A DNA stretch of 35,232 nt, taken from the NCBI GenBank assembly GCA_001002765.1, contig LCMS01000009.1:1-35232 (forward strand), read 5' to 3'. The first letter of the stretch is position 1. Each line of letters opens with the position of its first letter. The notes under the pieces are model-generated. The model searched no databases and had not been told where the DNA came from. It saw nothing but the letters and a program-made list of their open reading frames with translations. Positions 4,819 through 29,877 of this stretch are shown here, in pieces. The DNA is from Candidatus Uhrbacteria bacterium GW2011_GWE2_46_68 (lineage in GTDB: Bacteria; Patescibacteriota; Patescibacteriia; UBA9934; GWF2-40-263). The translations under genes and the position numbers were made by a program.

Positions 4819-4892
4819 TGGTTCCCGGACAGGGATTCGAACCCCGATTGCCAGGGCCAGAACCTGGCGTCCTGCCTTTAGACGATCCGGGA
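4819..4892 (-). tRNA. tRNA-Gln (anticodon CTG), CCA encoded
   Basis: Reverse complement tcccggatcgtctaaaggcaggacgccaggttctggccctggcaatcggggttcgaatccctgtccgggaacca folds as cloverleaf; anticodon loop contains CTG. Confidence 0.93.
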
Positions 4893-28672: not shown

Positions 28673-28746
28673 TCCCGGATCGTCTAAAGGCAGGACACCA
28701 GGTTTTGGTCCTGGGTATCGGGGTTCGAATCCCTGTCCGGGAACCA
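28673..28746 (+). tRNA. tRNA-Gln (anticodon TTG), CCA encoded
   Basis: tcccggatcgtctaaaggcaggacaccaggttttggtcctgggtatcggggttcgaatccctgtccgggaacca cloverleaf. Confidence 0.95.
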
Positions 28747-28784
28747 CATAAAAACCACAGACATGTCTGTGGTTTTTATGTGGT
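28743..28784. repeat. Perfect 42-bp palindrome that includes the tRNA-Gln discriminator and CCA
   Basis: accacataaaaaccacagaca|tgtctgtggtttttatgtggt. Confidence 0.95.
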
Positions 28785-28891
28785 AAGGAAAGCGACAGCT
28801 TTCCCAAACGGATGTCCGCATTTTGTAACATCCGTTTGCCAGACAGGGATATAGCGAGCAAAGAGAGCTTGCTCTCGAGAGTGAGCGTTCA

Positions 28892-28909
28892 TCCCTGTCC
28901 GGGAACCAA
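28892..28909 (+). repeat. 18-bp direct repeat of tRNA-Gln 3' end
   Basis: atccctgtccgggaacca identical to 28729-28746. Confidence 0.95.
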
Positions 28910-28953
28910 CAAACATCCTCAGTTTCACCTGGGGATTTTTGTTATCCCCAAAT

Positions 28954-29877
28954 TGGGGTCAGGTCGTGCTTCGTGCTTTTTTTATTTTTTTGTATACTCC
29001 TCGGCTGATTTTACTAACGACAGATCGATCTAAATGAAGAAATCTGGCTATTTCCGACGCAGAATACCCGCAAAGAAATCGAGCAAATACTATCGCCTCA
29101 TTTCGTTCGTTCTTCGTTGAAATATCTTCAAAAAGTTCTTGAAGGTTTGGTTTTCCTACTATTCTTTCTTCTCTGGAATGTTCTTTAATGTGCTCGGAAC
29201 TTTTTGTTTTTTTCCAAATCCAATGAACAAATTGTGGGGTGCCTAAAATAAAACGATGTGTCAAATCACGATAAGGATCCTCAACACAAGTTCCTTCCGA
29301 AATGAAACGATGATATTCCTTTTGAGCTTTATTTTTACTTTTTGAAAATAAGCTGAGCATCCAATTGATGGATAACCAATCAGGACAACAAACGGACCCA
29401 ACGGTTGCTCGATAGCTACTCCATTTCCAAAATCGTGGATGAGAAACCAATTTTGCACGCACTGGGTTCAATATAATGTAACGGGAAACACCAAGGAGAT
29501 AAGATTCCTTTTCGATAACAAATGCCTTATAACGACCTTGAAACAAATGTCCAATACGTCTATGGCGAGCATTAAACCATTGTGTATAGTTACCATTGAG
29601 ATCCCTCATTGCTTTGGAAAGATTTGCATCTGGCGTTTCGATAAGTAAATGGTAATGATTGTCCATAAGACAATAGGCATGACAAATAAGATGATAGGTT
29701 TCAACAGCTTTCCGCAACCAATCAAGAAATTTTTTTCTATCCTTATCATCTAGGTAGATGTCCTGAAAAGCATTACCCCTGGTTATGACATGGTAAAGAG
29801 CATTTGAATACTCGACACGGATTGGTCTGGACATATCAATCATTATAGCAAAAAGCACGAAGCACGACCTGACCCCA
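28954..29877 (-). mobile_element. RAYT-type element: Y1 transposase gene with perfect 28-bp terminal inverted repeats
   Basis: 28954-28981 tggggtcaggtcgtgcttcgtgcttttt is reverse complement of 29850-29877 aaaaagcacgaagcacgacctgacccca; encloses the Y1 transposase ORF. Confidence 0.92.
28959..29834 (-). CDS. REP-associated tyrosine transposase (Y1/HUH, IS200-like TnpA_REP) with C-terminal HTH
   Basis: MSRPIRVEYSNALYHVITRGNAFQDIYLDDKDRKKFLDWL, HUH-type MDNHYHLLIETPDANLSKAMRDLNGNYTQWFNARHRRIGHLFQGRYKA; C-terminal GYSASEIARFLHLDRSVVSKISRG. Confidence 0.95.
   Translation of the reverse strand: MSRPIRVEYSNALYHVITRGNAFQDIYLDDKDRKKFLDWLRKAVETYHLICHAYCLMDNHYHLLIETPDANLSKAMRDLNGNYTQWFNARHRRIGHLFQGRYKAFVIEKESYLLGVSRYIILNPVRAKLVSHPRFWKWSSYRATVGSVCCPDWLSINWMLSLFSKSKNKAQKEYHRFISEGTCVEDPYRDLTHRFILGTPQFVHWIWKKTKSSEHIKEHSREERIVGKPNLQELFEDISTKNERNEAIVFARFLCGYSASEIARFLHLDRSVVSKISRGVYKKIKKARSTT

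Follow-up and report, generated by a model that had tools for sequence, protein, structure and literature searches.

The window analysed here is a stretch of 35,232 nucleotides (contig 9) from the 1.06-Mb, 99% complete genome of Candidatus Uhrbacteria bacterium GW2011_GWE2_46_68. It contains an intact tRNA-Gln(TTG) gene whose last 18 nt recur as an exact direct repeat behind a short hairpin-rich segment (Table 1). A preceding sequence-only reading had reported this duplication together with a series of consecutive hairpins between the two copies. The duplication is real, with a period of 162, and the second copy occupies 28891-28908, one position away from where that reading had placed it; the 42-bp palindrome, the two spacer hairpins and the final hairpin were all found as described. 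For a window of this length, about 0.009 repeats of an 18-mer would arise by chance, and ATCCCTGTCCGGGAACCA occurs elsewhere in the window once, on the minus strand at 4819, inside a tRNA-Gln(CTG) gene. The fold of the tRNA and segment (273 nt) was 10.65 s.d. beyond that of dinucleotide shuffles, none of 200 shuffles being equal to it, and in the minimum-energy fold the tail region of the tRNA was paired with the antisense arm. As a terminator-like palindrome is present directly after the tRNA in many relatives, the 42-bp palindrome is probably the terminator of the tRNA and not specific to the segment. A hairpin resembling the second terminator-like hairpin also lies 3′ of the tail copy in four related loci (L036, L017, L018 and L168).

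Table 1. Features of the tRNA-Gln(TTG) locus (positions in the window; E-values of our home-made models R1, R2 and R3 are rough)
Feature	Position	Strand	Basis
Intact tRNA-Gln(TTG) gene that hosts the insertion	28673..28746	+	ARAGORN; Rfam RF00005, 56.3 bits
18-nt tail copy 1 (ATCCCTGTCCGGGAACCA), the tRNA 3′ end from T-loop to CCA	28729..28746	+	exact repeat
42-bp perfect palindrome, beginning at the tRNA ACCA	28743..28784	.	sequence; palindromes at tRNA-Gln in relatives
Spacer hairpin GGAAAGC-GACA-GCTTTCC	28787..28804	+	sequence; spacer hairpins at the equivalent place in relatives
Spacer hairpin AAACGGATGT...ACATCCGTTT	28806..28838	+	sequence
Conserved structured unit, R1 match	28840..28899	+	E = 3.4e-13 (seed-alignment member); covariation
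Antisense arm GACAGGGAT, reverse-complementary to the beginning of the tRNA tail	28842..28850	+	cognate match of 9 nt
Hairpin GACAGGGAT...ATCCCTGTC	28842-28899	.	sequence
18-nt tail copy 2 (ATCCCTGTCCGGGAACCA), direct repeat behind the element	28891..28908	+	exact repeat
Second terminator-like hairpin, 3′ of the tail copy	28909..28943	+	fold

There is no ORF within the 162-bp element of the window, the neighbours of which are MurI-like, Y1_Tnp and MFS genes. A search of the genome contigs with the MurI-like protein detected no close relative, the best match being a Ca. Uhrbacteria protein with 44% identity. The Y1_Tnp gene (IS200-like/RAYT; 28959-29858, minus strand) is situated directly behind the second terminator and is flanked on both sides by perfect inverted repeats of 22 bp, GGGGTCAGGTCGTGCTTCGTGC, the whole unit extending from 28955 to 29876. 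These repeats were absent from positions 28729-28908 when the sequence was read, and the gene was rejected as a mover of the element because its ends are unrelated to it.

In relatives, tRNA-Gln is followed by one to three tandem units resembling the last hairpin of the window. A covariance model, termed R1, was built from 14 units, with the window sequence among the seed, and yielded 33 matches in 12 of 96 genomes; at a stricter cut-off, 11 of the order's 73 genomes had matches. The genomes used here and below were mostly drafts, and their loci were sampled by similarity. Matches were also located behind tRNA-Asn, tRNA-Asp and tRNA-Ser, on the same strand as the tRNA. Covariation downstream of tRNA-Gln had been proposed as a check in the sequence-only reading, and the signal was strong: compensatory changes were detected in 8 of 11 pairs among 31 distinct sequences, with a score of 0.345 versus 0.137 for shuffled and at most 0.063 for slid controls, counts that are biased towards the structure by the fitting of the alignment to the model. 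The window copy belongs to R1; its 18-nt tail copy is complete and is followed by a second terminator-like hairpin. Closest to it in form is a locus of genome G056 (L036/L043), where a tRNA-Gln(CTG) is associated with an identical 18-nt repeat, a homologous 3′ hairpin and an insert encoding an 86-amino-acid GIY-YIG ORF. In L033 (330-425), L034 (660-752) and L035 (upstream of the unit), a conserved transcript-like sequence, GTTCTATACGACCGG...GACCGGATCGTAGAACCA, without an Rfam match and with a common upstream region, gtctcatttgtctcattt, was observed.

The 5′ arm of R1 units is the reverse complement of the tail of the adjacent tRNA, whichever tRNA this is. Its sequence is CGGACAGGGAT at tRNA-Gln; next to a tRNA-Gln(CTG) with a differing tail it is CGAGCAGGGAT, next to tRNA-Asn CGAGGGTGGGGAT, next to tRNA-Asp CCGGACGGGAT and next to a tRNA-Ser AGAGGAGAGGAT. 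For the 27 R1 units with a tRNA in the locus, not all of which are independent since some are in tandem at one locus, the longest match of the arm averaged 10.0 nt for the cognate tail, 5.2 nt (maximum, 7) for non-cognate tails and 5.6 nt for the unit's own 3′ arm. The cognate match exceeded the match to the own 3′ arm in 24 of the 27 units and was shorter in none, even with the retention of a misregistered locus (L140) that weighs against the result. In a model-free count, 32 of 269 unique tRNA loci had an antisense stretch of at least 10 nt to the tail on their downstream side, a proportion that is not a genome-wide rate because the loci were partly picked for tRNA-Gln, compared with about 2.3 expected from non-cognate tails and 3 upstream.

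A second and larger type of unit, R2, contains two hairpins; one copy lies in the window genome behind tRNA-Glu(CTC) (G000:C4:6962-7074). The R2 model, built from four sequences, detected 78 matches in 31 of the 73 genomes of the order. Sixty of the 72 matches analysed were within 400 nt downstream of a same-strand tRNA, 58 of them at a distance of 25 to 78 nt (median, 69), and the associated tRNAs represented 14 amino acids. The R2 core is followed by a copy of the last 21 nt of the local tRNA. This cognate copy measured at least 12 nt in 46 of the 60 and was exact over at least 18 nt in 38, the mean for non-cognate tails being 5.4 nt; in 41 of the 46 it started 21 nt from the tRNA 3′ end, within the T-loop. 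Covariation was detected in 22 of 26 pairs (score of 0.527 versus 0.160 for shuffled and at most 0.054 for slid controls). The longest antisense match was no more than 4 to 7 nt in roughly half of the R2 copies. Several of the R2 copies that look recent duplicate the terminator too, and the tail copy is often exact while the two terminators are unrelated. A further model, R3, applied to 380 genomes of the phylum, gave matches in 22; among loci from genomes outside the model building, 24 of 27 were behind a same-strand tRNA, and 16 of these 24 had a cognate copy of at least 12 nt. The R2/R3 family is phylum-wide. In many R1 units the tail copy is only partial, and some of the units are located behind a terminator that is also present in an empty locus, indicating that R1 insertion may differ in detail from that of R2. 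At one locus (L304, 477-1618), a gene that we take to be creatininase-like, a name derived from reading of the sequence and not from a family search, is situated in a cargo-like position between tRNA-Asn and an R2 core with its tail copy.

R2 cores group by genus, and far less by tRNA type: the nearest neighbour of a core belonged to its own genus for 33 of 61 cores (6.7 expected) and to its own amino acid type for 10 (4.2 expected; label-shuffle maximum, 17). Within genome G026, cores behind tRNA-Gly and tRNA-Ala were 97% identical, with arms and tails that differed and each fitted its own tRNA. Within a lineage, R2 cores have spread from one tRNA gene to others, with the tail and arm fitting the local tRNA. 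Presence or absence in relatives was another check put forward in the earlier reading, and both states were observed, the comparisons being between loci of other genomes. In genome G069, a tRNA-Gln(CTG) is directly followed by TCACGACCTGTTCCTACAGACC; in genome G060, of the same genus, TCACGACCTGTTCCTACAGACC comes only after an array of terminator, antisense arm, core and a tail copy of 21 nt, the difference between these loci (L397 versus L396) amounting to an insert of ∼180 bp plus a 21-bp duplication. For R1, two genomes of one genus, G003 and G035 (L023/L021), have tRNA-Gln in common and apparently also the gene downstream of it, but G035 has ∼240 extra bases, including an R1 unit. A conserved sequence, TCACGACCTGTTCCTACAGACCGG..ACAGGGGGTGACCA, was seen directly 3′ of tRNA-Gln in L392, L397, L404 and L405.

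Each element consists of a conserved folded core with, upstream, a short arm antisense to the T-arm and acceptor 3′ strand of the adjacent tRNA. In R2 and in some R1 copies, including that of the window, a direct copy of the tail of the tRNA comes after the core and, hence, an intact tRNA stands in front and a tail copy behind. R1 and R2 share a common architecture, a likeness that does not imply homology. We consider, with a probability of about 0.72, that the segment in the window is a small ORF-less mobile element situated at the T-loop and 3′ end of tRNA-Gln and belonging to a structured group specialized for tRNA 3′ ends. The suggestion of a tiny tRNA-targeting element was supported by the occupied and empty loci in relatives, the covariation and the copies behind other tRNAs. 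The idea of a mere scar was not, the hairpins consisting of a conserved core and an arm antisense to the neighbouring tRNA.

With respect to mechanism, the folded core, as single-stranded DNA or RNA, may act as a recognition or recombination site, and the antisense arm would pair with the T-arm of the target tRNA gene, guiding or stabilizing insertion. An enzyme supplied in trans would join the element at the T-loop, and the tRNA tail would be duplicated during insertion, keeping an essential tRNA functional. The simplest reading of the window copy would be an insertion in the T-loop by an element carrying or creating a new tail, with the displaced tail staying at 28891. More tentatively, the elements may form a mobile class without protein genes in which only the folded RNA or single-stranded DNA core is conserved and both a guide-like antisense arm and a direct tail copy are acquired from each tRNA gene entered; target recognition would, therefore, be re-programmed at each jump and the tRNA kept functional.

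There is no protein gene in the window copy or in nearly all R1 and R2 copies. The best candidate enzymes are small tRNA-associated GIY-YIG nucleases or an Xer- or integron-like tyrosine recombinase acting on the hairpin. Among the loci fetched for small GIY-YIG genes (L043-L134), 68 of 96 small GIY-YIG ORFs were within 500 bp of a tRNA, all 68 on the same strand; beyond 250 bp, the numbers were at a background of 0 to 4 per 250-bp bin. A truncated 5′ copy of the same tRNA was present upstream of the gene in 21 of the 35 cases with a downstream tRNA (controls, 1 to 3), and the copies read by eye were broken in the anticodon or D loop by perfect hairpins. The same genomes, in other words, contain another kind of insertion into tRNA loops, and for this reason the GIY-YIG nuclease is a candidate. 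A direct link between a GIY-YIG gene and an R1 unit was found at one locus only, that of G056. A search for integrases, a check also suggested by the sequence-only reading, yielded two proteins with Phage_integrase matches in the window genome; these look like Xer-type tyrosine recombinases and are encoded on other contigs, none being in or beside the element. Reverse transcriptase was also considered as a mover and rejected, RVT_1 being absent from several R2-rich genomes (G026, G049, G051 and G254) and present in some genomes without R2.

Several other explanations can be weighed against a mobile element of this group. GIY-YIG homing elements, phage T4 SegB at tRNA genes and the Allomyces atp6 ORF360-type elements, which bring a replacement gene end, resemble the present elements in the insertion into a conserved gene with a duplicated replacement part and in the GIY-YIG ORF of the G056 locus, the 18-nt repeat of which is that of the window. 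The segment could be a decayed or non-autonomous homing element, for which a nuclease cuts tRNA loops and recombination repair copies the element with a replacement part of the tRNA. The proximity of the small GIY-YIG ORFs to tRNAs and the truncated, loop-broken tRNA copies fit this proposal. We regard it as rather unlikely, as nearly all R1 and R2 copies, including that of the window, lack the nuclease gene, the GIY-YIG loci bear other hairpin families, and recombination alone leaves unexplained how a structured core moves to a different type of tRNA with a rewritten arm. The classical attL/attR scar of an integrase-type island, with its interior deleted, corresponds to one of the possibilities raised by the earlier reading. 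Islands and satellites integrated at tRNA genes by tyrosine integrases are similar in that an intact tRNA marks one end and a direct repeat of its 3′ end the other; an exact 18-nt repeat flanks the window element, and at L304 a gene separates the tRNA from the tail copy. Unlike such islands, the elements measure 160 to 200 bp, have a folded core and an antisense arm and occur behind many tRNA types in one lineage; no integrase gene was found in or beside the window element, and the two Xer-type proteins were the only tyrosine recombinases detected in the genome. The conserved small size, the core shared across many tRNAs and the arm cognate to each of them make an integrase scar highly improbable, and it is on account of the core and arms that we disfavour it.

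A different proposal is that the segment acts in cis as RNA, the arm of a read-through transcript pairing with the 3′ end of the tRNA, or the tail copy competing for it, so that maturation or decay of the tRNA is regulated and element copies are retained for this function. The better fit of R1 arms to the tRNA than to their own 3′ arms, the frequent exactness of R2 tail copies despite unrelated terminators and the pairing of tail and arm in the minimum-energy fold of the window are all consistent with such a role. It is nonetheless unlikely in view of the patchy distribution within genera, the movement of cores between tRNA types, the tandem arrays, the gene inside one element and the terminator that precedes the core in most loci. 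Group I introns occur in tRNA genes and have an internal guide sequence complementary across the insertion site, which the arm resembles; the present elements, in contrast, are too small and have an intact tRNA already in front, and no group I intron was matched in Rfam searches of the window (gathering threshold) or related loci (relaxed thresholds), which gave only tRNAs and sub-threshold noise. An intron is, like the scar, disfavoured. So is the idea that the end of the tRNA was duplicated in tandem by chance and that the hairpins are random: replication slippage can create short direct repeats, but this explanation has a negligible probability and is refuted by the recurrence of the conserved core in further genomes and at different tRNAs, the covariation and the cognate specificity.

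Two further systems share features with the elements. Integron attC sites have a comparable fold, with an outer stem, an unpaired spacer, an inner stem and a variable terminal hairpin, and integron cassettes are likewise found in tandem arrays; at one locus, L304, a gene precedes the fold. The core sites of attC are RYYYAAC and GTTRRRY, whereas the outer stem here is tRNA derived (e.g., GACAGGGAT/ATCCCTGTC) and sits at tRNA genes. Among the Phage_integrase matches of the window genome, none was identified as an integron integrase. REP/RAYT systems also consist of short palindromic repeats, and a Y1_Tnp gene adjoins the window element; in contrast to these, R1 and R2 are located at tRNA 3′ ends and contain tRNA sequence, and the Y1 gene has its own inverted ends. 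A search of viral contigs with the DNA pattern of the R1 unit gave one match, attributed to chance, in a GC-rich phage-like contig without a tRNA. The elements are apparently an undescribed kind of small mobile element in ultra-small bacteria, no earlier description having been found in the open-access literature.

Mobile DNA of bacteria docks most commonly at tRNA genes, and a protein integrase normally mediates this. In the present case, many tRNA genes across a phylum with very small genomes have been colonized by a structured nucleic acid core with tRNA-matched arms, usually without a gene. If true, this would represent a new way of target recognition, would account for a large part of the hairpin-rich sequence that follows tRNA genes in this phylum and could reveal an insertion system that is programmable. 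Two families of hairpin arrays were additionally observed between different tRNAs and GIY-YIG genes, one starting with CCGAGCTGAGCTCGG (L054, L058, L060, L061 and L067) and the other with CGTAAAAACAC...GTGTTTTTACGTG (L064, L077, L082, L087 and L090).
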